Shown here: one piece after another, positions 8,783 through 61,569 of the stretch
Position numbering within the stretch: position 1 is the first letter of the stretch
Layout of the letters: each line of letters begins with the position of its first letter
Assembly: GCF_001305595.1 (NCBI RefSeq)
Contig: NZ_CP012404.1
Span: 1-64,000 of the forward strand
Length of the DNA stretch: 64,000 bases
From: Azospirillum thiophilum
GTDB lineage: Bacteria > Pseudomonadota > Alphaproteobacteria > Azospirillales > Azospirillaceae
Direction: 5' to 3'
Position numbers and translations under genes: made by a program
Notes under the pieces: generated by a model
The model's input: the letters and a program-made list of their open reading frames with translations, nothing else
Told to the model about the DNA's origin: nothing
The model's database searches: none

Positions 8783-8807
8783 CTTATAAACCCATTGGGA
8801 GATCGCC

Positions 8808-9848
<1,041 letters not shown>

Positions 9849-46899: not shown

Positions 46900-47522
46900 T
46901 CCGGCTGGCCTTCCTGCGCCATGGCGTCACCGGCTGGAACCGGGAAGGGCGCATCCAGGGCCGCACCGACATCCCGCTCGACGCGGAGGGCCGCGACCGT
47001 CTCGACCGCCTCGCCCTGCCGGAGGCGTGGCGCGACGCCGTCCTCCATGCCAGCCCGCTGTCGCGCGCGGTGGAGACGGCGCGGCGGCTCGGCGGCGGAC
47101 GCCCGGTGCGCACCGACGCCCGGCTGATCGAGATGGATTGGGGCGCCTGGGAGGGCCGGCACGGCGCCGCGCTGCGCGCCGATCCGGCCAGCGGCTACCG
47201 CGACATCGAGCAATGGGGCTGGGACTTCCGCCCGCCCGGCGGCGAGAGCCCGGCCGACCTGCGCGACCGCCTGACCGGCTGGCTGAAGGAGCTGGCGAGC
47301 GAGCGGGCCGGGGAGGGGGCAGGGGAGGGGGCCGGCGCGCATCTGGTCGTCAGCCATATCGGCGTGATGCGGGTGGCGCTGGCGCTCGCCTGGAGCTGGG
47401 ACTTCCGCGGCCCGCCGCCGGTGCCGGTCAAGCGCGAGCGGCTGTATGCGATGACGCTCGCCGCCGACGGCACCCTGCGGCCGGCCGGCGAGCGGACCGG
47501 GGAACGCCTGCCATGCCTCTGA
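46896..47522 (+). CDS. Histidine phosphatase (phosphoglycerate-mutase-like)
   Basis: A 208-residue protein of the histidine phosphatase superfamily. The catalytic RHG motif is in LAFLRHGVTGWNREGRIQGR; the second His is in LVVSHIGVMR, and Glu is in LIEMDWGAWEG. It overlaps the previous gene by 4 bp and the next by 10 bp. Set between glycosyltransferases, it may remove a phosphate from a sugar or glycan intermediate. There is no sign it is a glycolytic mutase. Confidence 0.9.
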   Translation: MIRLAFLRHGVTGWNREGRIQGRTDIPLDAEGRDRLDRLALPEAWRDAVLHASPLSRAVETARRLGGGRPVRTDARLIEMDWGAWEGRHGAALRADPASGYRDIEQWGWDFRPPGGESPADLRDRLTGWLKELASERAGEGAGEGAGAHLVVSHIGVMRVALALAWSWDFRGPPPVPVKRERLYAMTLAADGTLRPAGERTGERLPCL

Positions 47523-48715
47523 TGCCCGCACGTCTCATGCCCAATCGTCTCATGCCCAATCGTCTCATGATCGTCGTCACCCATCTGCTGGGCACCGGCC
47601 ATCTCAGCCGCGCGCTCGCGCTGGCCGAGGCCTTCGCCGGTCGCGGCTGGAGCGTCGACGTCGTCAGCGGCGGACGCCCGGCCCCCCATCTCGGCAGCGG
47701 GGGGGCGACCCTGCACCAGCTGCCACCGCTGGCGAGCGACGGGGCCGACTTCGCCACGCTGCTCGCGGCCGACGGCAGCCCGGCCGATGCCGGCACCTTC
47801 GCGGCGCGGCGGGCGATGCTGACCGGCCTGTTCGACCGGCTGCGTCCCGACGTGCTGATCACCGAACTGTTCCCCTTCGGCCGCCGCGCGCTCGCCGCCG
47901 AGTTCGACGCCCTGCTGGAGCGCGCCCGCGCGCAAACCCGCCCGCCGCTCACATTGGCGTCGGTGCGCGACATCCTGGCTCCGCCCTCCAAGCCGGCGCG
48001 GGTGGCGGAGACGGAAGGGCGGCTGGCGCGCTTCTACGACGGGGTGCTGGTCCATTCCGACCCCGCCGTCGTGCCGCTGGAGGACAGCTGGCCGCTGACC
48101 CCGGCGATGCGGCCGCTGCTGCGCTACACCGGCTTCGTCGTCCCGCCGCCGCCGGCAGCGGACGGCGGCACGGACGGGCAGGGCGAGATCCTGGTCACTG
48201 CCGGCGGCGGGCCGGTCGGCCGCCCGCTGTTCGAGGCCGCCGCCCGCTGCGCCGCCTCCGGCGCGCTTCCCCATCGCTGGCGCCTGCTGGTGGCGAAGGA
48301 CGATTGGGCGGGTGACGGGGCGCCGGCCGCCCGGCTGCGCGCGATGGCGCCGCCCGGCCGGCTGGTGGTGGAGCCGGTGCGTCCCGACTTCCGCGCCCTG
48401 CTGGGCCGCGCCGCCGCCGCGGTCGGGCGCTGCGGCTACAACACCGCGCTCGACTGCCTCACCGTCGGCGTCCCCAGCGTCTTCTGTCCCTTCGAGGACG
48501 GCAAGGAGGTCGAACAGACCATGCGCGCCGCCATCCTGGCCCGCCGCCCCGGCATCGCCATGCTGCGCGAGGCGGAGCTGACGCCCGACAGCCTCGCCCG
48601 CGCCCTGGCCTCCGTCCTCGGCCGGCGCATCCCGCCGCTCGATCCGGCGTCGCTGGCCGGCGCGGCGCGCAGCGTCGGGATCGTCGAAACCCTGCTGGCG
48701 GAGAAACGCCGATGA
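47513..48715 (+). CDS. Second MurG-like (GT28-type) glycosyltransferase
   Basis: A 400-residue GT-B protein. The core starts IVVTHLLGTGHLSRALALAE, and the C-terminal domain begins ILVTAGGGPVGRPLFEAA with RCGYNTALDCL as the nucleotide-sugar loop, similar to the first gene of the cluster. Four or five in-frame ATGs occur in the first 19 codons because of a 15-bp repeat; the conserved part begins at the ATG at 47567. The start at 47513 is used because of a GGGGAA site. The stop overlaps the next gene (ATGA at 48712-48715). Confidence 0.85.
   Translation: MPLMPARLMPNRLMPNRLMIVVTHLLGTGHLSRALALAEAFAGRGWSVDVVSGGRPAPHLGSGGATLHQLPPLASDGADFATLLAADGSPADAGTFAARRAMLTGLFDRLRPDVLITELFPFGRRALAAEFDALLERARAQTRPPLTLASVRDILAPPSKPARVAETEGRLARFYDGVLVHSDPAVVPLEDSWPLTPAMRPLLRYTGFVVPPPPAADGGTDGQGEILVTAGGGPVGRPLFEAAARCAASGALPHRWRLLVAKDDWAGDGAPAARLRAMAPPGRLVVEPVRPDFRALLGRAAAAVGRCGYNTALDCLTVGVPSVFCPFEDGKEVEQTMRAAILARRPGIAMLREAELTPDSLARALASVLGRRIPPLDPASLAGAARSVGIVETLLAEKRR
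47531..47569 (+). repeat. 15-bp tandem repeat spanning alternative start codons
   Basis: CGTCTCATGCCCAAT occurs at 47531-47545 and 47546-47560, with a partial third copy to 47569. Each copy contains an in-frame ATG, giving MPNRL-type repeats at the protein N-terminus. It is similar in size and effect to the repeat at 41714. Confidence 0.9.
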
Positions 48716-49506
48716 CCGGTTGGAGCGAGAACGGCTGGAGCGCGGTCGAGGACGAGCTGGCGCGCTGGAGCGGCCTCGGCCGGCGCTGCGCGCTGTGGCT
48801 GCGCGACGACGACGCGGTTGCCGCCGGGCCGGCGCTCGACCGGCTGCTGTCCCGCACGGCCGGGGCCGGCATCCCGCTCGGCCTCGCCGTCATCCCGGCC
48901 GATGCGCAGCCGTCGCTGGCCGGGGCGCTGGCCGGGGCGCTGGCCGGCAGCATGCACGTCACCCCGCTGGTCCATGGCTGGTCCCATGCCGACCATGCCG
49001 CTCCCGGCGCCAAGAAGTGCGAGTTCGGCCCCGAACGCCCCGCCGCGGTCCGCCGGGACGACGCCGAACGCGGCCTGCACGCCTTGCGCGCCCTGTTCGG
49101 CGAGCGGCTGCTGCCGCTGTTCGTGCCGCCCTGGAACCGCATGGCCGCCGACATGCCCGCCCTGCTGGCCGCCGCCGGCTATCATGCCGTGTCGGGCTTC
49201 GGCCCGGCGCCGCGCCGGCGCGACGGCCTCGCCTGGGTCAACACCCACCTGGATCTGATCGACTGGCGCGGCGGCCGCTCGGCGGTGGCGCCGGACGCGC
49301 TGCTCGCCGGCCTGCTGCGCGAGCTGCGCGACAGGCGGGAGGGCCGGCGGGACGCGCTGCGCGACCCGGACGAGCCCATCGGCCTGCTGAGCCATCACCG
49401 CGTCCACGATGCGGCGATCTGGGATCTGCTGGACCGCCTGCTCGACCGTCTCGCCGGCCATTCGGCCTTGGTCTGGCCGTCCATCGCCGACCTCTCCCGG
49501 ACCTGA
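48712..49506 (+). CDS. Polysaccharide deacetylase-like protein
   Basis: A 264-residue protein with NodB-like motifs: CALWLRDDDAVAAGP (catalytic Asp/metal Asp) and VHGWSHADH (metal His pair), then FVPPWNRMAADM (motif 3, P-W-N-R). This matches carbohydrate-esterase-4-like proteins found in exopolysaccharide clusters. No signal peptide is seen, so it may act in the cytoplasm on a lipid-linked intermediate. Last of six genes linked by overlapping stops and starts. Confidence 0.85.
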   Translation: MTGWSENGWSAVEDELARWSGLGRRCALWLRDDDAVAAGPALDRLLSRTAGAGIPLGLAVIPADAQPSLAGALAGALAGSMHVTPLVHGWSHADHAAPGAKKCEFGPERPAAVRRDDAERGLHALRALFGERLLPLFVPPWNRMAADMPALLAAAGYHAVSGFGPAPRRRDGLAWVNTHLDLIDWRGGRSAVAPDALLAGLLRELRDRREGRRDALRDPDEPIGLLSHHRVHDAAIWDLLDRLLDRLAGHSALVWPSIADLSRT

Positions 49507-49544: not shown

Positions 49545-50450
49545 TCAAGCCGCCGCGGTCGTTGAAGCGGCGAATTTCCTGGCAAGGTCAATGAATGCCT
49601 TGAACGCGGCGGACGAGTGTCGCCGGCTGGGATAGTAGAGGCAAAGCTGTTCCAGTGGCGGAGTCCAGTCTTCGAGGATGCGAACCAGGCGGCCGGCGGC
49701 AAGGTCGCCTTGAACGTCGGACTCCATGAAGAATCCGATCCCCACATCCTCCAGCACCGCCATGCGGGCGAGGCTGGCCTCGTCCAGGGTGATCGGGCCG
49801 TCCACGTCGATCTGGACCGGCTGTCCACCCTTCTCGAACTGCCAGCGGAAAAGCGCTCCATTGGGCAGCCTTACGCGGATGCACGGATGGGAAAGCAGGT
49901 CGGAGGGCGATCTCGGCCGGTCCCTGGTCCGGAAATAGCCCGGTGATGCAACCACCGCATACCGGCGGCGCGGACCGAGCTGCACCGCGATCATGTCGCT
50001 GGGGACGAGGTCCGCGGTGCGGATGCCGAGATCGAAGCCGTCCGCGACGATGTCGACGAGCCGGCCCTCGGTGACGAGGTCGACATGGACCTGCGGATAG
50101 AGCCGCAGGAACTGGAGCAGGAGCGGAAGGATCTCACGCGCGGCCGCGGCAAAGCCATTGATGCGCAAGACGCCCGATGGCGTGTCCTGCTGCGACCGGG
50201 CGGTTTCCATCGCCTCATGGATGTCCTGGAGCGCCGGGCCGATTCTGTCCACGAACTGCCGCCCGGCGTCGGTCAGGGAGACGCTGCGGGTCGTGCGATT
50301 GAACAGGCGGACCCCAAGCTCCCGCTCCAGCTTGCCGATCGCGTTGCTGAGCGCCGTGGTCGACATGCCGAGTTCCAGCGCAGCCGCGCGGAAGGATCCA
50401 CGGCGCATGATGGCGACCACCGAATCCAGCTCGATCAATCCATTGCGCAT
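49545..50450 (-). CDS. LysR-family transcriptional regulator
   Basis: A 301-residue LysR protein. The N-terminal helix-turn-helix is [39 protein letters not shown]. The effector domain has [19 protein letters not shown], typical of the large subgroup with PA0477/DmlR-like members. It is convergent with the polysaccharide deacetylase and divergent from the small SnoaL-like gene at 50603, which may be its target. Confidence 0.88.
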
Positions 50451-50602
50451 GATTGTCCCGATTGTCGTGACGGTACATCCCGGTTTATCCCGGTTATGCC
50501 GATACGGGTCCAGTCGTAATCTGTCAGGACATCAGGTCGGGATGGACGGCGCCACAGCTTCGGAAGGCTCTTGGTGCCGTCTTCTCCGGACAGGGCCGAA
50601 AG

Positions 50603-50950
50603 ATGACGACGGAGATGACCATGACCATCGAACTGCCCGGTGCGATTGCCGGCTATTTCGCTGCCGACGCAACCAGGGATGCCGACCGCGTTGCCCGGTG
50701 TTTCACCCGGGACGCCGTGGTGAGGGATGAAGGAAAGACACATCGCGGGCGCGACGCCATCCGGTCATGGAAGGCGGACACCTCGACCGCCTACAGCTAC
50801 ACCGTCGCCCCCTTCGCCATCGCGACCGAGGGCGGCCGAACGGTGGTGACAAGCCGCCTGGAAGGCAATTTCCCGGGCAGCCCCACGAACCTGCGCTATT
50901 TCTTCGTCCTGGATGGCGACGGGATCGCCGGGCTGGAGATCGTTCCATGA
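50603..50950 (+). CDS. SnoaL-like (NTF2-fold) small protein
   Basis: A 115-residue protein of the SnoaL-like/NTF2 fold: [40 protein letters not shown] and an [14 protein letters not shown] strand. Members bind small hydrophobic ligands or act as isomerases or cyclases; here the function is unknown. The ATG at 50603 is used; starts at 50615 or 50621 are also possible. It is divergent from the LysR gene at 50450 and convergent with the MarR gene. Confidence 0.8.
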
Positions 50951-50975
50951 CCGGAGTCGATCGGCAGGAGGCCAA

Positions 50976-51449
50976 TCAATGTGCGTCGGGTGACGTCCAG
51001 CCGCCGATATGCGCGTAAACGGCATCCCGCAGCTGCGCGATCTCGCGGTTGAGCTTCCCCAAGGCGGCGGGCGACGCCCCCGAGGCGAGGAGCAAGGTAT
51101 CGCCCAGGCAACCCGCCCTGGAGCGCAGGGCCACCCCCTTGGCCGTCAGCGACACGATCACCTGCCTCTCGTTGGCCGGGTTGCGCGTGCGATGGATCAG
51201 TTCCGCAGCCTCGAGGCGTTTGAGCAGAGGCGTCAGCGTGCTGGATTCAAGCGCAAGCTGCTGGGCGATGTTCCCGACCGTCTGTCCGTCTTCCCGCCAC
51301 AGGATGTTGAGCACGAGATATTGCGGATAGGTGAGGCCTAGGGCGTCCAGCAGCGGCTTGTAGGCCCGCTGGATGGCGATGCCGGCCGAGTAGATCGCGA
51401 AGCAGAGCTGCTCCTCCAGCGGTACCGGCGGCTTGTCCACATCCGACAT
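50976..51449 (-). CDS. OhrR-type MarR-family regulator
   Basis: A 157-residue MarR protein. The N-terminal LEEQLCFAIYSAGIAIQRAY carries the reactive Cys of OhrR (LCFALY motif), followed by the winged helix TVGNIAQQLALESSTLTPLL. A second Cys is in RAGCLGDTLL, so a two-Cys organic-peroxide sensor is plausible. A strong AAGGGAGC site precedes the ATG. It is divergent from an alpha/beta hydrolase gene, with palindromic boxes in between. Classical OhrR regulates ohr; here the target is different. Confidence 0.88.
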   Translation of the reverse strand: MSDVDKPPVPLEEQLCFAIYSAGIAIQRAYKPLLDALGLTYPQYLVLNILWREDGQTVGNIAQQLALESSTLTPLLKRLEAAELIHRTRNPANERQVIVSLTAKGVALRSRAGCLGDTLLLASGASPAALGKLNREIAQLRDAVYAHIGGWTSPDAH

Positions 51450-51486
51450 GGGTTGCTCCCTTCGCAGTGCATCTTCCGCTGACATA

Positions 51487-51548
51487 TATCGCGATAAATT
51501 TTCCTGGACAAGAGAGCGCGCCAAGGATACAAACGATTATCGCGATAA
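51487..51548. promoter_or_regulatory. Two TATCGCGATA palindromes in the MarR/hydrolase divergent promoter
   Basis: TATCGCGATA is at 51487-51496 and in the longer perfect palindrome TTATCGCGATAA at 51537-51548, with a further half-site GTTATCGCAA at 51551-51560. The two full sites are 51 bp apart and flank both promoters. Likely operators of the OhrR-type regulator, controlling itself and the hydrolase. Confidence 0.7.
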
Positions 51549-51576
51549 CAGTTATCGCAATTGAATGGAGGAAAAC

Positions 51577-52371
51577 ATGAAGACCATGCTTCAGGCCCTG
51601 ATCCTGGCCGCTTCGGTCGTCACCCTGCCGCCGTCGGTCTCGCAGGCGCAGCCGACCGGCCAGCACGTCGATCGGGCGGCTGTCAGGAATGTCGTCCTTG
51701 TCCATGGCGCCTTTGCCGACGGATCGGGATGGCGGAAGGTCCATGAGGATCTGACCAACCGCGGATACCGGGTCACGATCGTCCAGAATCCGCTCACCTC
51801 CCTCGCGGACGATGTGGCGGCCACACGGCGCGCGCTCGACAGGCAGGATGGTCCCGCCGTCCTGGTCGGCCACAGCTGGGGCGGCACCGTCATCACCGAA
51901 GCCGGTCTCCATCCCAAGGTGCGTGGGCTGGTCTATGTGTCCGCCCTGTCGCCCGACGCCGGCGAGACCACGGCGCAGCAATATGACGGCTATACGACAC
52001 CGCCCGAATTCGTCATCGAGAAGAGCGAGGACGGCTTCGGCTTCATCAAGCCCGACAATTTCGCCGCCGGCTTCGCGGCGGATGCGACGAAGGCCGACGT
52101 CGATTTCCTGAAGGCGTCGCAGGTTCCGATCAATCTGGCGAGCTTCGGCGTGAAGCTCCAGCATGCCGCCTGGCGGACCAGGCCCAGCTGGGCGGTGATC
52201 GCGACGGAGGACAAGGCGTTCGATCAGCGGATGCTCCAGGACATGGCGAAGCGCATCGGCGCGAAGGTCACGAACGTCCCGGCCAGCCATGCCGTCTACT
52301 TCACGCAGTCAGAGGTGGTCGCGACGGTGATCGACGAGGCGGCCCAACAGTCGGGCGCGGTCTCGCCGTAG
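51577..52371 (+). CDS. Secreted alpha/beta hydrolase
   Basis: A 264-residue alpha/beta hydrolase with a signal peptide (ALILAASVVTLPPSVSQAQ). The oxyanion region is LVHGAFADGSGWR; the nucleophile elbow is GHSWGG with Ser, then an acid near EDKAF and His in ASHAVY. It resembles the EstC/salicylate-esterase-like group. The ATG at 51577 is chosen because GGAGG sits five bases upstream; a start four codons earlier is possible. It is divergent from the MarR regulator, so peroxide- or phenolic-inducible expression is likely. Confidence 0.88.
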   Translation: MKTMLQALILAASVVTLPPSVSQAQPTGQHVDRAAVRNVVLVHGAFADGSGWRKVHEDLTNRGYRVTIVQNPLTSLADDVAATRRALDRQDGPAVLVGHSWGGTVITEAGLHPKVRGLVYVSALSPDAGETTAQQYDGYTTPPEFVIEKSEDGFGFIKPDNFAAGFAADATKADVDFLKASQVPINLASFGVKLQHAAWRTRPSWAVIATEDKAFDQRMLQDMAKRIGAKVTNVPASHAVYFTQSEVVATVIDEAAQQSGAVSP

Positions 52372-52419
52372 GCACCGGCTTCGTCGGACCGTTCTCTCTG
52401 CCTGCCAAAGGGTCCATGC

Positions 52420-52595
52420 GATGAATCGTTCCGCCCCGGCTGCCGCGTGCTCCTCATCGAAGCGGGCGGCAGCGGCGGGGATGAGGCGGTGCCGAATCCG
52501 GCATCATGGCCCACGACTCTCGGCAGTCGGCGCAACCGGGAAGTCCAGGCCGAACCGAACCCGCATCCGGGCGGCCGCGCGCTTCCCGGGGGAGG
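52420..52595 (+). pseudogene. Remnant of a GMC-family oxidoreductase
   Basis: In one frame the DNA reads GCRVLLIEAGGSGGDEAVPN, then PASWPTTLGS and QAEPNPHPGGRALP, as in the N-terminal FAD-binding region of GMC (choline dehydrogenase-like) oxidoreductases. The first Rossmann part is missing and the sequence stops near 52595, just before the LysR gene end. Only about 55 residues of a 530-residue family remain. A deletion or rearrangement relic; not a functional gene. Confidence 0.65.
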
Positions 52596-52603
52596 GGGGA
52601 CGA

Positions 52604-53506
52604 TCAGGCCTCCCCATCCGCCAGTCCCGCCAGCCCGGCCAGCAGATGCTCGATGAAGGACCGGACCTTCGGCGAGACGTGGCGGGTCGCGGGATAGACG
52701 GCATGGATGGCCTCGTCCGTCAGCTCCTGCGCGGTCAGCACCGGCACCAGCCGGCCCGCCTTGATGTCGTCCTCGACGATGAAGTCGCCCAGCCGCACCA
52801 GCCCCAGCCCGCCGACGGCGGCATGCCGCAGCATCCACAGATTGTCGGCCTGGAAGCTGCCGTTGGGGCGCAGGGTTTCGCGGACGCCGTCGACCAGGAA
52901 CTCCCATTCCGGCCGGCCGCTGCCGGTCATCAGCGTCAGGCAGTCGTGGCGGGCGAGGTCGGCCGGCACCTGCGGCGTGCCGTGGCGCTCCAGATAGCCG
53001 GGGCTCGCCACCACCCGGCGCCGCATCGACCGCAGCCGCCGGGCGATCAGCGACGAATCGGCCAGCCGGCCGATGCGGACCGCCAGATCGAAGCCTTCGT
53101 CCACCAGCCGGACGTTGCGGTCGCTCAGGCTCGCCTCCAGCGTGACGCCGGGATACCGCTTCAGGTAGGAGGGCAGCAGCGGCGCCACCAGCATCTGGCC
53201 GAACATCACCGGCAAGGTGATGCGCAACGTCCCGCGCGGCTCCTCGTTCATTTCGGTCAGCGCCTGTTCCGCCTCGTCCAGCGCCGCCAGGATGGCGCGG
53301 GCGCGCAGGCAGAAGGTAGCGCCGGCATCGGTCAGCGCGACCCGCCGCGTCGTCCGCGCCAGCAGGCGCGTGCCCAGCCGGTTCTCCATCTGCGCGATGC
53401 GCCGGCTGATCGCCGAGGCCGACAGCCCAAGCCGTTCCGCCGCCGCCGACAGGCTGCCGCCGTCCACCACCTCCACCAGCACCGTCAGGTCGTCCAGCCG
53501 GTCCAT
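52604..53506 (-). CDS. LysR-family transcriptional regulator
   Basis: A 300-residue LysR protein of the large CrgA-like subgroup (LTVLVEVVDGGSLSAAAERL, SASAISRRIAQMENRLGTRL, effector GFDLAVRIGRLADSSLIAR). The ATG at 53504-53506 follows GAGGGGAAG. It is divergent from a peroxiredoxin gene, 134 bp away, with a TTGCA-N5-TGCAA site in between. A role in redox or metal stress control of the genes to the right is a fair inference. Confidence 0.9.
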   Translation of the reverse strand: MDRLDDLTVLVEVVDGGSLSAAAERLGLSASAISRRIAQMENRLGTRLLARTTRRVALTDAGATFCLRARAILAALDEAEQALTEMNEEPRGTLRITLPVMFGQMLVAPLLPSYLKRYPGVTLEASLSDRNVRLVDEGFDLAVRIGRLADSSLIARRLRSMRRRVVASPGYLERHGTPQVPADLARHDCLTLMTGSGRPEWEFLVDGVRETLRPNGSFQADNLWMLRHAAVGGLGLVRLGDFIVEDDIKAGRLVPVLTAQELTDEAIHAVYPATRHVSPKVRSFIEHLLAGLAGLADGEA

Positions 53507-53540: not shown

Positions 53541-53555
53541 TTGCATTTCTTGCAA
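53541..53555. promoter_or_regulatory. LysR-type dyad between the LysR and peroxiredoxin genes
   Basis: TTGCA-ttttct region: TTGCA at 53541-53545 and TGCAA at 53551-53555 are perfect inverted copies with five bases between. This matches the general LysR T-N11-A box and lies midway between the divergent starts. Confidence 0.5.
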
Positions 53556-53639
53556 AGATCTTGTGCGCACACCCCCATGTTTTGCAAGCCCGCTCTCCGA
53601 CAGGATGGCCTTGCTGAACAAGCCGACGGGAAATGCGAG

Positions 53640-54305
53640 ATGCGCCTGCAACGACAACTCCGCAACATTCGTGCGCAGGCCGGAAAGGTCGTGTCGCCGG
53701 ACGCGGTGGCGATGCTGGACCGGGTCGTCGCCGACCTGAAGGCGCGCGGGGCGGAACTGGGGGCGCTGCGCCCCGGATTGCAGGCCCCCGACTTCGCGCT
53801 GCCCGACCAGCAGGGCCGCACCGTCTCGCTGTACGAGACGCTGGCGCGCGGGCCGGTGGTGCTGCTGTTCTACCGCGGCGAATGGTGTCCCTATTGTTGC
53901 GCACAGCTCAGGGCCATGCAGCTGGCGCTGCCGCAACTGACCGCCGCCGGCGCGCGGCTGGTCGCGGTGTCGCCGGAGCTGCCGGACCACAGCCTGTCGA
54001 TGGCGGAGCGCAACGCGCTCGACTTCGACATCCTGTCCGACCGCGGGGCGATGGTGGCGCGCAGCTACGGCCTCGTCTACCGGGTGCCGGACGACATGCG
54101 GGACTTCTATCGCGACCGCGGCGTCGATCTCGGCATCCGGCACGGCTGCCCGCCCGGACAGCCCTGGCATCTCTCCATTCCGGCGACCTACCTGCTGGCG
54201 CCCAGCGGCATCGTGCGCTTCGCCAGCATCGACGCCGACTACACCCAACGCCCGGAGCCGCAGTCGCTCGTCGACCTGCTGCACGACCGCGTCCCGGCGC
54301 ACTAG
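53640..54305 (+). CDS. Peroxiredoxin-like (AhpC/TSA) protein
   Basis: A 221-residue thioredoxin-fold protein. After a 50-residue helical N-terminus come APDFALPDQQGRTVSLYETL and LLFYRGEWCPYCCAQLRAM, with a CPYC peroxidatic/redox motif. It belongs to the 'peroxiredoxin-like' AhpC/TSA group rather than classical 2-Cys AhpC. Likely reduces peroxides in the cytoplasm. The ATG at 53640 is inferred from the alignment pattern. It lies 60 bp before bufA and may be co-transcribed with the bufferin operon. Confidence 0.88.
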   Translation: MRLQRQLRNIRAQAGKVVSPDAVAMLDRVVADLKARGAELGALRPGLQAPDFALPDQQGRTVSLYETLARGPVVLLFYRGEWCPYCCAQLRAMQLALPQLTAAGARLVAVSPELPDHSLSMAERNALDFDILSDRGAMVARSYGLVYRVPDDMRDFYRDRGVDLGIRHGCPPGQPWHLSIPATYLLAPSGIVRFASIDADYTQRPEPQSLVDLLHDRVPAH

Positions 54306-54365: not shown

Positions 54366-54665
54366 ATGACCGCCACGCGCACCAAGACCCTGGCCCTGCT
54401 CCCCGTCGCCGGCGCGCTTGCCGGCGCCCTGACCCTGCTGGCCGGCCCGGCCGCGGCGCAGCAGGCCAACATGGAGAAGTGCTACGGCATCTCCAAGGCC
54501 GGCGAGAACGGCTGCGCCCACGCCAAGGGCCTGCATTCCTGCGCCGGCAACACCAGCCTGACCTATGACGGCGGCGACTGGAAGCTGGTCAAGGCCGGCA
54601 CCTGCGCCGCGGAGAACGGCCAGCTGAAGCCGTTCGAGGGCGCCAACCCGAAGAAGAAGGCCTGA
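54366..54665 (+). CDS. bufA1: Bufferin precursor peptide BufA1 (DUF2282)
   Basis: A 99-residue precursor with a signal peptide (residues 1-31, ending GPAAA). The mature part has four cysteines, Cys39, Cys50, Cys59 and Cys80, in the DUF2282 pattern EKCYGISKAGENGC, HSCAGN and GTCA. Bufferins are exported RiPPs whose cysteines are modified by the MNIO enzyme BufB with BufC, producing copper-binding peptides that protect the periplasm. It sits directly before bufB, bufC and a DoxX gene, the standard order. The C-terminus ends in lysines, NPKKKA. Confidence 0.92.
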   Translation: MTATRTKTLALLPVAGALAGALTLLAGPAAAQQANMEKCYGISKAGENGCAHAKGLHSCAGNTSLTYDGGDWKLVKAGTCAAENGQLKPFEGANPKKKA

Positions 54666-54669
54666 CGCC

Positions 54670-55641
54670 ATGGCCGCGACGACGCCTCCCCCTGCTGCGG
54701 CCCGCGCCGCCGGCCCCGTCCTGGACCGGGCAACTCCGGCTCCGGTCGCGGTTCCGGCCCCGGTTCCGGCCCCGGTTCCGGCCGCGGCCGGCATCGGCCT
54801 GCGCGAGCCGCATCGGGAGGCGTTCGTCGCGGCCGGCCTTCCCGCCCCCTGGGTGGAGATCCATTCGGAAAACTACCTGGTGCCGGGCGGCCCCCGGCTG
54901 GCCGGGATCGAGCGGGTGCGCCGCGACCGGCCGATCGGCTGCCACGGCGTCGGCCTGTCGCTGGGCAGTGCCGGCGGGCTGGATCCGGACCATCTTCTGC
55001 GGCTGCGCGCCCTCTATGCCCGGCTGGAACCGGGGCTGGTCTCCGAACATCTCTCCTGGAGCATCGGGGCAAGTACCGGCCCAGGCGCCAAGGGGGATGC
55101 CTATCTGAACGACCTGCTGCCGCTGCCCTACAGCGAGGAGTGCCTGGACCGGGTCTGCCGCAACCTCGACCATGCCCAGGACGCGCTGGGCCACCGCATC
55201 CTGGTGGAGAACCCGTCGGCCTACCTCGCCTTCGCCGGCAGCGTGATTCCCGAAGCCGAATTCCTGGCGGAGCTGGTGACCCGCACCGGCTGCGGCCTGC
55301 TGCTCGACATCAACAACCTCTATGTCTCGTCGGTCAATCTTGGTTTCGACCGGGCCGGCTGGCTGGACGCCATCCCCGCCGACGCGGTGGGCGAATACCA
55401 TCTCGCCGGCCATGCCCGCCTGACCGTCGGCGGCGAGGAGCTGCTGATCGACGACCATGGCAGCGCCGTCGGCGACGCCGTCATGGCGCTGTTCGCCGTG
55501 GCGCTGGACCGGATCGGTCCGCGCCCGACGCTGATCGAGTGGGACACCGACCTGCCGGAGCTGGACGGGCTGCTGGCCGAGGCGGCACGGGCGCAGCGGC
55601 TGCTCGACCCCGCGGTGCGGAGCGGCCGTCATGCCCACTGA
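54670..55641 (+). CDS. bufB1: Bufferin maturase BufB, DUF692/MNIO enzyme
   Basis: A 323-residue multinuclear non-haem iron oxidase (DUF692). Visible metal-ligand regions: CHGVGLSLGS, LVSEHLSWS, VENPSAY, LDINNLYVS, YHLAGH, LIDDHG and EWDTDLPEL, all with the expected His/Asp/Glu residues. It modifies the cysteines of BufA to thiooxazole-type groups. The N-terminus (about 1-38) has an extra Pro/Ala-rich tail coded by a 12-bp tandem repeat (GGTTCCGGCCCC at 54750-54785). It starts four bases after the bufA stop. Confidence 0.93.
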   Translation: MAATTPPPAAARAAGPVLDRATPAPVAVPAPVPAPVPAAAGIGLREPHREAFVAAGLPAPWVEIHSENYLVPGGPRLAGIERVRRDRPIGCHGVGLSLGSAGGLDPDHLLRLRALYARLEPGLVSEHLSWSIGASTGPGAKGDAYLNDLLPLPYSEECLDRVCRNLDHAQDALGHRILVENPSAYLAFAGSVIPEAEFLAELVTRTGCGLLLDINNLYVSSVNLGFDRAGWLDAIPADAVGEYHLAGHARLTVGGEELLIDDHGSAVGDAVMALFAVALDRIGPRPTLIEWDTDLPELDGLLAEAARAQRLLDPAVRSGRHAH

Positions 55642-56497
55642 GACGCAGGCCACGCTGGCCACGCTGCAACGGGACTTCACCGCCTTCCTGCTGCGGGGCG
55701 ACCCGGCCGTCGCCGGCGCCCTGCGCCCGGACCTGCCGCCGGGCCGGCTCGCGGTCTACCGCAACACCGTGGTCGGGTCGCTGGCCGACGTGCTGGGCAA
55801 TGCCCATCCCGCCGCGCGGCGCGCCGTCGGTTGCGACCGCTTCACCGCGCTGGCCACCCGCTTCGTCCTGGAGCATCCGCCGCGGCAACCGATGCTGTGG
55901 AGCTACGGCGGCGGCTTCGCCGACTGGCTGGAGCGGAGGGGAGGGGAGGGCGCGCCGCCCTGGCTGCCCGACCTCGCCCGGCTGGACTGGGCGATGCACG
56001 AGGCGCTGTTCGCCGCCGATGCCGAACCGCTCGATCCCGGCCGTCTCGCCGCGGTCCCGCCCGAACGGGCCGGGGCGCTGCGGCTGATGCCGCACCCGTC
56101 GGTCCGCCTGCTGCGCTCGGACTGGACCGTCCATGCGCTGTGGCGGGACGAGGCCGCGGTTGCCCGGACCGAACCGGAGGCGGTGCTGGTCGGCCGGACC
56201 GACGGCGAGGTGCGCTGCGCCCGGCTTTCGGCCGAAGACGGCGTGCTGGCCGCGCACCTCCTGTCCGGCGCCACCCTGGACGAGGCGCTTGCCGAAGCAG
56301 CATCGGCGGCCGGGGAGATGGCGGCCGGGGAGATGGCGGCCGGGGAGATGGCGGACGGAGAAATGCCGGACGGCGAGGAGGCCGCCACCGGCCTCCAGTC
56401 CCTGCTGGCGCTGCTGCTGCACAACCGATTGCTGGCCGGCTTCGCTCTCGACCACGGGAGCCCGGATGCCGGGCCGGCCGGAGGAGACGAGCCATGA
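55631..56497 (+). CDS. bufC1: BufC, DUF2063 partner of the MNIO enzyme
   Basis: A 288-residue DUF2063 protein that overlaps bufB by 11 bp. The N-terminal region [12 protein letters not shown] ... [20 protein letters not shown] is the family DNA-binding-like domain that helps deliver the precursor to BufB. The C-terminal part contains an AAGEM repeat coded by four 15-bp units (56306-56365), which is not part of the family core. The stop overlaps the DoxX start (ATGA at 56494-56497). Function by family: recognition of BufA. Confidence 0.9.
56306..56365 (+). repeat. 15-bp tandem repeats in bufC
   Basis: GCGGCCGGGGAGATG is repeated at 56306, 56321 and 56336, and a diverged unit follows at 56351. 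It codes for a repeating AAGEM segment. Unit changes keep the frame, so length variation between strains is expected. Confidence 0.9.
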
Positions 56498-57015
56498 TGT
56501 CCCTGCCGCCCACCCGGCCCGCTGCTCCACCCTCCGGGCCGGCCGCCGCATGGCCCACGCCGGCCCTGCATGCCGCCCTGCATGCCGGCGGACGGATCGC
56601 CGGCTGGCTCGAGCGCCATGCCGCCCCGCTGCTCGACCTCGCGGTCCGGCTGGCGATGGCGCCGATCTTCTTCCGCTCGGGCCTCCAGAAGATCGGCGAC
56701 TGGCCGTCGACGCTCTTTCTGTTCCAGGAGGAATACCGGGTGCCGGTCCTGCCCGCCGACATCGCCGCGCTGCTGGCCACGGCAACCGAGCTGACCATGC
56801 CGGTGCTGCTGGTGCTCGGGCTGGCGACCCGGCTGGCGGCGCTGCCGCTGCTGGCGATGGCGATGGTGATCCAGTTCGTGCTCGGCGCGCAGAATCCGGC
56901 CTTCAACAATCCGCAACATTACTTCTGGATGCTCCTGCTCGCCGGCCTGGTCGTCCGCGGCGGCGGCCGGCTGTCGCTCGACCATTGGATCCATCGCAAG
57001 GGAGGCGGCCTGTGA
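56494..57015 (+). CDS. DoxX-family membrane protein of the bufferin operon
   Basis: A 173-residue membrane protein. About four hydrophobic helices start at [18 protein letters not shown], the DoxX signature. DoxX-like proteins are the usual fourth member (BufD) of bufferin operons, where they may help redox steps or export. A Pro/Ala-rich 45-residue N-terminus precedes the core. A GGAGGAGA site lies upstream. The stop overlaps the chemoreceptor start (GTGA at 57012-57015). Confidence 0.88.
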
Positions 57016-58775
57016 CCCCATCCGTTTCGACCGCCGCCGGGCACCGGCAGCCCGCCCGGCCAGCCGGGCAACAGCAGACCGCCCGGCCAGCCGGGCACCG
57101 GCAGATCGCCCGGCTCGGCTGGCTGCTGTCCGCCGGCCTCATCGCCGTGCTGCTGCTGGTGCTGGCGGTCAGCGTCGTCACCGTGCGCGGGATCGCCCAG
57201 GTCGACGAGCGCTGGAACGCCTACGACCTCGGCGCCGCCGCCAAGGCGGACGCGCTGTCCGACCTGCGCGGCGCGCTCGGCTTCGGCGGGGTGATCCACC
57301 GCTTCGGCGATTTCCTGCTGACCGGCGACCCGGCCCGCGCCGCCGAGGTGCGGCAGAGCCTGCGCTCGGCCTCGGCCAACCTCGACGTCTACCGCTATGC
57401 CGGCGACCTGACCCAGGCGGAAGGCGCTGCGCTCGACACCGTCGCCGCGACGCTGGTGCAGGTGGAGGCCAAGCTGTCGGGAGCGGAAAAGGCGCTGGCC
57501 GCCCATGTGCCGCTCGACCGGCTGGCCCGCGACGCGGCGCTCGACACCGCACCGGCGGTCGCCGCCATGCGGACGCTGAACGGCGAGCTGACGCGCGGCC
57601 GGGCCGCTCTGGGCGAGGCCAACCGCGACGGCATCGCCGCGCTGAACCTCACCGTGCTGAGCGGCGGCGGGGTGGCGCTGGCGCTGCTGCTGACCATCGC
57701 CGGCCTGTTCCTCTGGTTCACCCATCACCGCATCGTCCGCCCGCTGGCCCGGCTGGCCGCGGCGATGCAGCGGCTTGCCGGCGGCGACCTGGAGGGGGAG
57801 GTGCCGCTGGCCGGCCGCCGCGACGAGATCGGCGCCATGGCCGGCACCGTCCAGGTGTTCCGCGACGGGCTGGTGCAGCTGCGCGCGGCGGGCGAGCGCG
57901 AGCGCGCCGAGGCCGAGCGCGACCGCCGCCGCCAGGAGGAGCTGGAGCGCGGCCTGCGCGCCTTCGAGACGGAGATCGGCACGCTGGCCGGGGCGCTGAC
58001 CGGACGGGCCGGCACCCTGCGGCGGACGGGGGAGACGCTGGCGCAGTCCTCCGGCCGGACCATCGCCGGCACGCAGGAGGTGTCCGCCGCCGCCGCCCGC
58101 ACCGCCGACACCGTCCAGGCCGTCGCCGCCGCGACCGAGGAGCTGTCGGCCTCGATCGCCGCGATCGGCCAGCGGGTGCATGGCTCGGTCGACATGGCGA
58201 CGACCGCCGCCGGGCAGGCCGAACGCTCGTCCGCCACCGTCGCCAGCCTGGCGGAGGCGGTGCAACGGATCGGCGAGGTGGTCGGGCTGATCAACGCCAT
58301 CGCCAGCCAGACCAACCTCCTGGCGCTGAACGCCACCATCGAGGCGGCAAGGGCGGGGGAGGCCGGCAAGGGCTTCGCCGTGGTGGCGCAGGAGGTCAAG
58401 AATCTCGCCAGCCAGACGGCGAAGGCGACCGAGGACATCACCGGCCAGATCGAGACGATCCGCAGCGCCACCGACGGCGCGGTCGGCGCCATCCAGGGGA
58501 TCGGCGGCAGCCTGGAGCAGGTCTGCCGCATCGCCCGCGAGATCGCCGACGCCGTCACCCAGCAGGACGCGGCGACGCGCGAGATCGCCCGCAACATCCA
58601 GGAGACGGCCGGCACCGCCGGTGCGGTCAGCGTCGCCATCGCCGAGGTGGCGCAGGCCGCCGAACAGGCCGGCACGGTTGCGGACGGCATGCTTGCCGCG
58701 GCACAATCGCTGGGCGGCGAGACGCAGCGGCTGGAGGCCGCGACGCACCGCCTCTCGGACACCCTGCGGGGGTGA
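57012..58775 (+). CDS. Methyl-accepting chemotaxis protein
   Basis: A 587-residue chemoreceptor starting with GTG in a GTGA overlap with the DoxX gene. TM1 is about residues 34-58, the periplasmic sensor about 59-212, TM2 about 214-238, then HAMP, and the MA signalling domain with the hairpin tip [20 protein letters not shown] and [16 protein letters not shown]. Its sensor is homologous to that of the next gene (see findings). The N-terminus has an imperfect repeat based on RQPARPAG. The sequence does not name the ligand; position after bufABC suggests copper or redox stress (inference). Confidence 0.92.
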
Positions 58776-58791
58776 GGAAGGAAACGGCAGC

Positions 58792-61569
58792 GTGACCGAT
58801 ATCACCAGGGACGACGCCATCGCGGCCGTGGCCGGACCCCCGTCGTCCAGTTCGCCGCCCGCCACTTCACCGCACGCCGCGCTCCCAGATGCGCATGGGC
58901 CGTCCGGCAGGCAGGAGGGGCGTCCGCAGGCCCCTCCGGAGTCGCGTCCGGCAGCGCGGGGCCGGCGCTTCAACCTGACCATCGCGCGGTCGTCGCTGCT
59001 GCTGACGACGGCGCTGGTGGTCTGTCTGGTGGTGATGCTGGCGGTCGGTGTCCAGCTGGTGCGCGGCATGGAGTCGGTGGCCGACGGCTGGCGCGACTAT
59101 GATCTCCAGGCCGCCACCCGGTCCGACGCCCTGTCGGAGGTCCGCGGGCATCTCGGTCTCGGCGGCGTCATCGACCGGTTCCAGGAGGGCCGTGCCGCCA
59201 CCGATCCCGCGGTACGGGCGGAGCTGGAGCGGTCGCTGGATCTCGCCCGCGCCAACCTGGGCATCTACCGCGACATCGCCACGCCGACGGAGGACGAGGC
59301 GAAGGCGATCGCCGCCATCGCCGCCTTCCTCGACGCCATCGAGGTGCAGCTCACCGATCCGGCAGGCGCCATCTCCGCCGAGGCCTTCGACGCCTGCCGC
59401 CGCGACGCGGTCAAGGGGCTGGCCGCGCTCAACAGCCATCTCAGCCTGCAGCGCGCCCGGCTGACCGCCGCCAACCTGACGGGAATCGAACAGCTTCAGC
59501 GGATGATGACGATGGGCGGCGGCATCATCGGCGTGCTGGTGCTCGGGCTGGCGGGGGCGGCGGTGTGGTTCACCCGCAGCCGCATCCTCCGTCCGCTCGG
59601 CCGGCTGATGGAGGATGCCCGCCGGCTGGCCCGCCGCGACCTCGACCATCCGTTCCTGTGGACCCGGCATGACGAGCTGGGGCTGCTCGGCCGCAGCCTG
59701 GAAGGCAGCCGGGCGGCCTTGCGCAACCTGTTCTTCGCCATCGAGGAGAAGTCCCGCCGCCTGGGCGAGAGCGAGCGCCGCTATGCCATGGCCGCCGCCG
59801 CCGCCAATGACGGGCTGTGGGACTGGAATGTCCTCACCGATTCGCTGTACCTGTCGCCCCGGCTGCGCCGGATGCTGCATCTGCCGGAGGGCGGCGCGGA
59901 CGATCCGGAGGATGCGCCGCCGCCAGCGCCGGGATTCGATCTGGACACCGAACTGGGGCCGGGCGTGGCCCCCTGCCTGGAGCCGCTGCTGGCGCGCATC
60001 CATCCCGACGACCGCCGCGCCTTCCTCGCCGCCCTGCGCCAGGGCGAACGGGGGGCCGACGGCACCGTCTTCGAGATCGAGTTCCGGGTGCCCCCGCCCC
60101 CGCAGCAGCAGAGCGGCGAGCAAATGGCATCGCCGGGCGGCGAAGAAGCCTGGATCCATCTGCGCGGCATCGTCGCCCGCGGGACGGACGGCCGGCTGGT
60201 CCGGCTGGCCGGCTCGGCCGCCGACGTCAGCGACCGCAAGGACTACGAGGCGCGGCTGGTCCATCAGGCCACCCATGATTTCCTGACCGGCCTGCCCAAC
60301 CGCGCCTTCCTGGTGCGCTGGCTGCATGACCGCCAGTCGGAGGAGCAGCCGGAGAAGCGGGCCGGGCTGGCGCTGCTGTTCCTCGACCTCGACGGCTTCA
60401 AGACGATCAACGACAGCCTGGGCCATGCGGTCGGCGACATGGTGCTGATCGCCACGGCCGACCGCATCTCGGCCTTGCTGGCCCCCGGGGAGTTCGTCGC
60501 CCGGCTGGGCGGCGACGAGTTCGTCCTGACGGTTCCGGCCGGGCAGGAGGAGGCGATGGCCCGCGCGCAGGCGCTGGAGGCCGCCTTCCAGCGCCCGCTC
60601 TGCGTCGGCGGCATGGAATTGCGGGTCGGGCTCAGCATCGGGCTGGCGGTGGATGACGGGACCGGCGGCGATCCCGACCGGCTGTTGCGGGACGCCGACA
60701 TCGCGCTCTATCGCGCCAAGGAACGCGGCAGGCGCCAGACCGTCCTGTTCGACGCCTCCCTGCGCGAGGCGATCCTGATCCGCAACCGCCTGCAGCAGGA
60801 TCTGGTGCGGTCGATCGACGACGGCGACATCTTCCTGGTCTACCAGCCGATCGTCACGCTGCCCGAAGGGCGTCTGGTCGGGTTCGAGGCGCTGGTGCGC
60901 TGGCGCCATCCCGACCTCGGCCCGATCAGTCCGGCGCAATTCATCCCCATCGCCGAGGAAACCGGCCAGATCCTGCCGCTCGGCCGGCATGTGCTGGAAC
61001 AGGCGGTGGCGCAGCTCGGCCGCTGGCGGGCGGCGGCGGGCGGCGGCGGGCTGACCGTCAACGTCAACCTGTCGGCCCGCCAGATGTGGGACGAGCGTCA
61101 TATCGAGGAGTTGCTGGCCATGCTGGCCGACGGCCGGGCGGCCGGGCTGAAGATCGAGGTGACGGAGAGCATGACCGTCACCGACCATGACCAGGCCCGC
61201 GCCACGCTGGAGCGCTTCCATGCGCTGGGGGTGCAGCTGTGCATGGATGATTTCGGCACCGGCTATTCCTCGCTGTCGCATCTCAGCCGGCTGCCCTTCG
61301 ACGTGCTGAAGATCGACAAGAGCTTCATCAGCGCGCTGGGCGGCGATCCGCGGCAGGAATCGCTGCTGCGCGGCATCGTCGAGCTGGCCCACACCATCGG
61401 CCTGGACGTGGTGGCCGAGGGGGTGGAGACCGAGGCCGAGCGGGCGGTCGTCACCCGCATCGGCTGCGACTATGCGCAGGGCTACCTGTTCGCCCGCCCC
61501 TTGTCGGTCGCCGATGCCGACGCGCTGCTGGCCCGGCAGGCACAGCAAGGGGCCGGCCCGCTCCCGTGA
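58792..61569 (+). CDS. GGDEF-EAL cyclic-di-GMP protein with the same sensor
   Basis: A 925-residue membrane protein starting at GTG 58792. TM1 is about 62-85, the sensor about 86-240, TM2 about 243-265, then a HAMP-like region, PAS/PAC (about 325-485), GGDEF (residues 573-577 intact) and EAL (699-701 intact, with DDFGTGYSSL). Both cyclase and phosphodiesterase motifs look usable; no RxxD I-site was seen just before GGDEF. The sensor resembles that of the chemoreceptor 16 bp upstream. Cytoplasmic output is c-di-GMP turnover. Confidence 0.93.
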   Translation: MTDITRDDAIAAVAGPPSSSSPPATSPHAALPDAHGPSGRQEGRPQAPPESRPAARGRRFNLTIARSSLLLTTALVVCLVVMLAVGVQLVRGMESVADGWRDYDLQAATRSDALSEVRGHLGLGGVIDRFQEGRAATDPAVRAELERSLDLARANLGIYRDIATPTEDEAKAIAAIAAFLDAIEVQLTDPAGAISAEAFDACRRDAVKGLAALNSHLSLQRARLTAANLTGIEQLQRMMTMGGGIIGVLVLGLAGAAVWFTRSRILRPLGRLMEDARRLARRDLDHPFLWTRHDELGLLGRSLEGSRAALRNLFFAIEEKSRRLGESERRYAMAAAAANDGLWDWNVLTDSLYLSPRLRRMLHLPEGGADDPEDAPPPAPGFDLDTELGPGVAPCLEPLLARIHPDDRRAFLAALRQGERGADGTVFEIEFRVPPPPQQQSGEQMASPGGEEAWIHLRGIVARGTDGRLVRLAGSAADVSDRKDYEARLVHQATHDFLTGLPNRAFLVRWLHDRQSEEQPEKRAGLALLFLDLDGFKTINDSLGHAVGDMVLIATADRISALLAPGEFVARLGGDEFVLTVPAGQEEAMARAQALEAAFQRPLCVGGMELRVGLSIGLAVDDGTGGDPDRLLRDADIALYRAKERGRRQTVLFDASLREAILIRNRLQQDLVRSIDDGDIFLVYQPIVTLPEGRLVGFEALVRWRHPDLGPISPAQFIPIAEETGQILPLGRHVLEQAVAQLGRWRAAAGGGGLTVNVNLSARQMWDERHIEELLAMLADGRAAGLKIEVTESMTVTDHDQARATLERFHALGVQLCMDDFGTGYSSLSHLSRLPFDVLKIDKSFISALGGDPRQESLLRGIVELAHTIGLDVVAEGVETEAERAVVTRIGCDYAQGYLFARPLSVADADALLARQAQQGAGPLP

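Follow-up and report, generated by a model that had tools for sequence, protein, structure and literature searches.

The first 64,000 nucleotides of contig NZ_CP012404.1 of Azospirillum thiophilum (assembly GCF_001305595.1; this whole stretch is called the window below, and its genome comprises 7.6 Mb in 8 contigs) hold a bufferin gene row that runs on into a chemoreceptor gene and a gene for a GGDEF-EAL protein, an enzyme of cyclic di-GMP (c-di-GMP) turnover, and the two receptors carry copies of one duplicated sensor domain. Bufferins are recently described, widespread modified copper-binding peptides whose role in cell behaviour is little known. The unit consists of eight genes: a divergent LysR gene, then peroxiredoxin, bufA, bufB, bufC, doxX, the chemoreceptor gene (methyl-accepting chemotaxis protein, MCP) and GGDEF/EAL. 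It is a real and conserved variant of the bufferin cluster and, as far as our searches show, an undescribed one.

The bufferin row and its twin sensors

The features of the unit, in window coordinates, are as follows.

52604 to 53506, minus strand: LysR-type regulator, divergent from the operon (LysR_substrate 3.3e-44, HTH_1 9.7e-22); recurs beside the unit
53541 to 53566, no strand assigned: conserved block resembling a LysR box in the LysR-peroxiredoxin gap, putative control region (pattern derived from an alignment)
53640 to 54305, plus strand: peroxiredoxin-like protein (AhpC/TSA; AhpC-TSA 2.2e-27); recurs directly upstream of bufA
54366 to 54665, plus strand: bufA, bufferin-1-type precursor with four Cys (DUF2282 9.4e-18)
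54670 to 55641, plus strand: bufB, MNIO maturase (PF05114 MbnB_TglH_ChrH 9.3e-92; NCBIfam MNIO_BufB 336.5 bits, cut-off 310)
55631 to 56497, plus strand: bufC, DUF2063 partner (PF09836 4.8e-23)
56497 to 57015, plus strand: doxX, start at 56497 or 56494 (PF07681 DoxX 6.9e-15)
57012 to 58775, plus strand: chemoreceptor MCP with sensor, HAMP and MCP signalling domain (MCPsignal 2.1e-32, HAMP 3.2e-13)
57183 to 57653, plus strand: chemoreceptor sensor domain, predicted four-helix bundle (pairwise alignment, shuffle test, model)
58792 to 61569, plus strand: HAMP, PAS-like, GGDEF-EAL protein (EAL 1.5e-73, GGDEF 1.1e-37, HAMP 8.4e-09; PAS_3 0.0068, below cut-off)
59059 to 59502, plus strand: GGDEF-EAL sensor domain, paralogous to 57183-57653 (41% identity, 2e-24; tree)

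In translation, the bufA, bufB, bufC and doxX genes nearly touch or overlap, the end of doxX and the start of the MCP gene have GTGA in common (a 4-bp overlap), and the GGDEF-EAL start lies 16 bp past the MCP end. This is the row given in a preliminary description of the window, and translation and the Pfam and NCBIfam assignments agree on it; the word "fused" used there holds for one contiguous gene row and not for one polypeptide. The peroxiredoxin-like gene, which ends 60 bp upstream of bufA, and the divergent LysR gene were absent from that description, and both are kept with the unit. The precursor matches DUF2282 and keeps its four Cys across the alignment, with a signal peptide judged by eye, and the maturase is a BufB-type MNIO above the NCBIfam cut-off. 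The DUF2063 and DoxX partners exceed the Pfam cut-offs, and bufC and doxX do not reach those of NCBIfam (HvfC 69.6 vs 142, HvfX 63 vs 80). The chemoreceptor has HAMP and MCPsignal above cut-off and two membrane helices judged from sequence. GGDEF, EAL, DDFGTGYS, KIDKSF-type and QGY motifs are present in 15 of 15 GGDEF-EAL proteins, with AEGVE in 8 of the 15, AEGIE in 6 and GEGIE in that of genome G057. Within bufC (window 56305-56380) the translation also shows a brief repeat in frame, with three copies of AAGEM followed by ADGEMPDGE.

The two periplasmic domains are identical at 63 of 155 positions (41%) over nearly their whole length (BLASTP 79.3 bits, E 2e-24), and their local alignment score of 240 compares with a maximum of 74 over 2000 shuffles. 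Four of the five sensor motifs quoted in the preliminary description (W-x2-YDL-x-AA, DALS-x2-RG, GGVI-x-RF and ANL-x2-YR) occur at equal spacing in both proteins; the fifth, DPA-x3-AE, is in neither and reads DPA-x2-AE in both. Searched against its own genome with all 41 candidates scored, the MCP sensor returns, besides its own place, the neighbouring gene (1.6e-20) and a single weak match (0.028), and a profile of 32 sensors finds the two sensors only (all 111 candidates scored). The full-length MCP matches at least 77 places in the same genome (among the best 150 of 223 candidates), mostly through its HAMP and signalling parts. The idea that the neighbouring receptors are alike merely as chemoreceptor sensors generally are is ruled out by these whole-genome sensor and profile searches. 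The alignment of the two domains, which had been proposed as the check, is better than that with the other receptor sensors of the genome and leaves the claim standing: the 41% alignment, the whole-genome searches and a tree all bear out one duplicated sensor on a chemoreceptor and a c-di-GMP enzyme.

In that tree (41 sensors), the 18 GGDEF-EAL sensors form one clade (100/100) and nine outgroup members stand apart (100/100). Thirteen of the 14 MCP sensors cluster with weak support (82/61), and the MCP sensor of G057 is placed next to the GGDEF-EAL clade, again with weak support (83/72). These sequences are most simply read as a single ancient divergence of the two receptor types. Compared with its Azospirillum orthologues, the window MCP is 77-87% identical in the sensor and 80-85% in the signalling domain; the GGDEF-EAL protein is 62-78% identical in the sensor, 75-82% in GGDEF, 76-85% in EAL and 39-53% in the PAS-like part. 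As the sensors stand well above the PAS-like part, the periplasmic input is under constraint.

An AlphaFold model of the sensor is a four-helix bundle (pLDDT 89.9). Foldseek with this model returned nothing at E 0.001 or better (best match 4k0d at E 8.8e-3). VIA-align gave Z values of 12-14 to chemoreceptor and kinase sensors and likewise to designed bundles, and because designed bundles score alike we claim the fold class alone. The predicted fold is that of the four-helix-bundle sensors of Tar/Tsr, PcaY, MCP2201 and CHASE3; unlike Tar/Tsr- and CHASE3-type sensors, the window pair lies below every Pfam sensor cut-off (CHASE3 and 4HB included), the best being TarH at 0.14 for one of the two. 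A sequence search of the PDB with the sensor profile gave nothing meaningful (best 0.014, a prefoldin), nor did one with a remote member of the family (best 0.16). The pattern GYGG-x-IH-x-FKN marks a wider sensor family that turns up here and there in the class, in at least 27 of the 385 genomes with a small number of candidates scored in each, and one of its five scanned members exceeds the CHASE3 cut-off. Receptors of this wider family (loci L087, L088, L099 and L103-L127) often have two tandem copies of the domain and are largely without a Pfam model for it.

Recurrence of the unit and of its parts

The family set comprised 82 genomes, 45 of them from the genus of the window, and a search at the level of the order amounts to the same set and added nothing. 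Up to 46, 9 and 25 candidates per genome were scored in the family, class and flank searches, which in many genomes is part of the total, so misses are possible. The sensor was found in 21 of the 82 genomes, strongly (E below 1e-30) in 19. The unit lies beside an MNIO gene in 13 of the 45 Azospirillum genomes, ten times whole on one contig and in G021 split over two contigs, which bears out the view that the receptor genes belong to the bufferin row; this recurrence rules out an accident of one genome. The 4-bp doxX/MCP overlap is kept in 12 of the 13 (G036 has a 2-bp gap), and in the 12 loci with both receptor genes the MCP-GGDEF/EAL gap is 16-35 bp, taking the start codon closest to the upstream stop. 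An MNIO gene is present in 19 of 19 strong-sensor genomes and in 26 of 63 others (Fisher 1.2e-6, uncorrected for relatedness). A plasmid collection held two further records, both from Azospirillum.

In the gap between the LysR and peroxiredoxin genes, about 26 bases form a conserved block resembling a LysR box. Its pattern, written after the alignment had been viewed, fits 12 Azospirillum loci exactly and the remaining one, G022, with a single mismatch; it is absent in G049 and G057, two family members of other genera. No conserved block was seen by eye in the peroxiredoxin-bufA gap (30-84 bp). Between 52500 and 61800, a scan for sigma-70 consensus promoters found none (0.1 expected; other promoter types lay outside the scan), and terminator-like sites are at chance level (3, with 2.0 expected, two of them inside doxX). 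The row is likely to be one operon beginning at peroxiredoxin.

Parts of the unit also occur in other combinations. In G049 and G050, from another genus, bufABC is followed by a sensor-bearing GGDEF/EAL gene with no MCP gene; G049 also has LysR, peroxiredoxin and doxX, and G050 has no match to any of these three by tblastn. In G049 two extra DoxX-like matches follow the GGDEF/EAL gene (L081:9712-10419, plus strand).

Receptors are rare at other bufferin loci. Among 60 MNIO places in the family, 13 are in the unit and two are those of G049 and G050; 40 of the remaining 45 were examined (five were left out), along with 60 loci from the class and 40 from the phylum (40 of 80 chosen loci obtained), 140 in all. 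Neighbouring genes were sought by tblastn with single window queries, by which distant members may be missed; bufA was recognised in 39 of the family, 43 of the class and 15 of the phylum loci. Within 4.5 kb of bufB, an MCP match occurs at five of the 40 loci from the family, at three of the 60 from the class and at none of the 40 from the phylum; for GGDEF or EAL the corresponding numbers are at most 2, 1 and 1. A chemoreceptor gene stands directly behind doxX at four of the 140.

L161:4859-6972, minus strand: chemoreceptor of a second bufferin row, different from that of the window, in G043
L163:4296-6409, minus strand: the same in G017
L169:8986-11174, plus strand: the same in G012
L230:9110-11543, plus strand: chemoreceptor 13 bp after doxX in the bufferin row of G244, from another family of the class

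The first three are of one Azospirillum type with a 4-bp doxX/MCP overlap, and the sensor of one of them is unrelated to the twin sensor (hhalign probability 0.4%, a single sequence). The G244 chemoreceptor has a longer and different N-terminal part, and its sensor matches neither the twin-sensor profile (1.0%) nor the type of the other three (no alignment). Judging by these sequences, receptors were apparently recruited behind doxX three times with different sensors, and this repeated placement argues for a tie between bufferins and taxis, though one rarely used. Two of the three second Azospirillum rows also have an upstream LysR match on the same strand.

Known bufferin-1 clusters, including GIG operons, share the four core genes and their order with the window row, and likewise a four-Cys precursor, according to the available parts of two papers (PMC12452194, PMC5413113). 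Unlike them, the window row is led by a peroxiredoxin gene and a divergent LysR gene and continues into MCP and GGDEF/EAL genes. The MNIO survey, as far as its text was available, describes bufferin clusters with sigma factor and NrsF genes and calls further conserved genes extremely rare; its main text has no mention of chemotaxis, methyl-accepting, GGDEF or di-GMP (supplements were outside the scope) (PMC12452194). The accessible part of a survey of Azospirillum GGDEF/EAL proteins has no mention of methyl-accepting, adjacent or genomic context, and its sole copper passage concerns the MHYT domain (PMC5845226). The open-access collection searched returned no paper joining bufferin (singular) with methyl-accepting, or bufferins with di-GMP. 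A paper on an outer-membrane channel mentions bufferins and chemotaxis, once each in the part available (PMC12509749).

What the twin sensors may report

We propose, with about even confidence, that the unit is a LysR-linked envelope-stress cassette in which one duplicated sensor couples metal buffering and peroxide defence to taxis and c-di-GMP. The block would be transcribed from the LysR-peroxiredoxin gap under LysR control; the bufferin peptide, matured by BufB/BufC and exported, would bind periplasmic copper, and the peroxiredoxin would handle the accompanying oxidants. The twin four-helix bundles, each a periplasmic domain flanked by two membrane helices, would read one stress-linked signal and relay it to two outputs: the chemotaxis kinase, for swimming away or towards, and c-di-GMP turnover, for settling or leaving. 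If this is true, copper buffering is part of a behavioural programme, with a ready genetic system for testing, and the two receptors are a natural pair for asking how one domain drives two outputs.

The preliminary description had suggested a link from copper to motility and biofilm choice. For the cassette such a link is plausible. The shared sensor and the place of the receptors in the bufferin row are borne out; a sensor that itself answers copper is not. Positions invariant over the 32 aligned sensors include W11, Y14, D15, D23, R29, G33, G35 and G36. One His is invariant in 14 of 14 MCP sensors, the MCP type only, and a Met is found in 13 of them, while 15 of the 18 GGDEF-EAL sensors have a Met at column 4; a metal could also be held by acidic residues of the sensor. 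Most likely, the signal is a consequence of metal or redox stress, not a copper ion bound at a site that both sensors have. Direct binding of copper is possible, without support from residues that the two have in common. A redox consequence seems at least as likely as a copper ligand because of the peroxiredoxin in the row and because copper taxis in Caulobacter reportedly needs reactive oxygen species, according to the part of that study available (PMC10579534). That metal-loaded or oxidised periplasmic BufA is the ligand of both receptors, so that the bufferin doubles as an internal signal for swimming or settling, we regard as a long shot.

Several observations weigh against the cassette as proposed. 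No His or Cys is invariant over the 32 sensors, and no GGDEF/EAL gene was found directly beside any of the 140 other MNIO loci. The unit was not found in 32 of the 45 Azospirillum genomes; where it occurs, the GGDEF/EAL gene has been lost from G031 and the MCP frame of G019 is broken in its assembly. G057, from a third genus, has LysR-peroxiredoxin-MCP-GGDEF/EAL without bufferin genes (L083), its MNIO gene being on another contig, and in Azospirillum G012, G017 and G043 a lone sensor-bearing GGDEF/EAL gene lies away from bufferin, near a partial LysR match (38% over 116 residues). The change of place described below was examined for this unit alone. A separate observation concerns the broken G019 gene: between the two pieces of its signalling domain stands a 35-residue stretch, read in a different frame, that matches the EAL domain at 91% (L090:8257-8996, minus strand), which could be recombination or an assembly fault.

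The arrangement in G057 speaks for the strongest rival, in which the signalling half belongs to a LysR-peroxiredoxin redox response and the bufferin genes are a later insert; the sensors would then report oxidants or redox products, and copper would matter only as a source of oxidants. The position of the conserved block, in the LysR-peroxiredoxin gap and not before bufA, fits this too, as does the role of reactive oxygen species in Caulobacter. However, bufABC-GGDEF/EAL in G050 comes without a LysR or peroxiredoxin match, the arrangement in G057 may reflect bufferin loss, and other chemoreceptors follow doxX in bufferin rows lacking a directly adjoining peroxiredoxin match. We consider this explanation rather improbable.

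Azospirillum are plant-associated soil bacteria that live with roots, and the twin sensors might instead bind a small organic molecule such as a root-derived acid or amine, in which case the unit would be a kit for niche entry and copper buffering a separate need. Among the structural neighbours of the sensor are domains that bind aspartate, serine, aromatic acids, citrate or D-amino acids, and the sensors have no common metal site. However, Z values for helical bundles may reflect a mere common arrangement (whole folds were compared), and the unit has no catabolic or transport genes. This we hold to be unlikely.

Two copper-related receptors are the closest comparisons for the cassette. McpR of Caulobacter crescentus is a chemoreceptor tied to copper stress and oxidants, as is proposed for the window MCP; McpR is cytoplasmic and uses Cys75 and His99 (PMC10579534, in part), whereas the window sensor, the product of a gene in a bufferin row, is predicted to be periplasmic and has no invariant Cys or His in common with the other copy. 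PA14_37690 is a copper-binding membrane GGDEF-EAL protein with a periplasmic sensor, an architecture like that of the window protein; its CHASE4 domain has about 220-260 residues, whereas the window sensor has about 150 and is a predicted four-helix bundle, and the available text mentions no bufferin or chemoreceptor partner (PMC13277305). A connection of another kind is found in Pseudomonas putida, where CsoR acts on CheA (PMC11978298, as far as available).

Genomic position of the unit

DNA similarity to the window starts at the 3′ end of the LysR gene (52594-52635) in 12 of 12 Azospirillum loci and stops at the 3′ end of the GGDEF/EAL gene (61530-61543) in 10 of the 12, the exceptions being G031, which is without that gene, and G021, where the contig ends. 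Flanks are common over 1 kb in three of the 66 pairs of these loci (2.3-7.9 kb of flank compared), and because they differ, plain synteny is unsupported as the cause of conservation. In 10 of the 12 relatives the left flank of the window (about 47000-49490) and its right flank (from about 61640) are on one contig without the unit, 0.09-9.1 kb apart (93 bp in G026, 660 bp in G019, 862 bp in G025); their own unit is on a different contig in nine and, in G036, at a distance of 1.2 Mb. No such pairing of the flanks was found in G024 and G031. That they are joined without the unit in relatives indicates that it changed place whole, by transfer or rearrangement.

One mobile block can carry operons together, and lone GGDEF/EAL genes, receptor pairs without bufferin and the absence of such genes from most bufferin loci would all suit receptor genes that merely hitch-hike on the promoter and moving DNA of the bufferin genes with no joint function, but the overlap kept in 12 of 13 species, the GGDEF/EAL gene behind bufABC in a second genus and the different chemoreceptors behind doxX elsewhere make this very doubtful.

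The roughly 3 kb between the left flank and the LysR gene, outside the unit, contain another LysR gene and an alpha/beta hydrolase gene. The hydrolase region (window 50399-52588) is 77-90% identical to G026:C2:539747-541850, which is on the same contig as the cassette of G026, about 0.26 Mb off. Window 8804-9848, 44 kb from the window cassette, matches at 87% identity a stretch that lies next to the cassette of G024 (L089 from 1908) and is possibly a shared mobile element.

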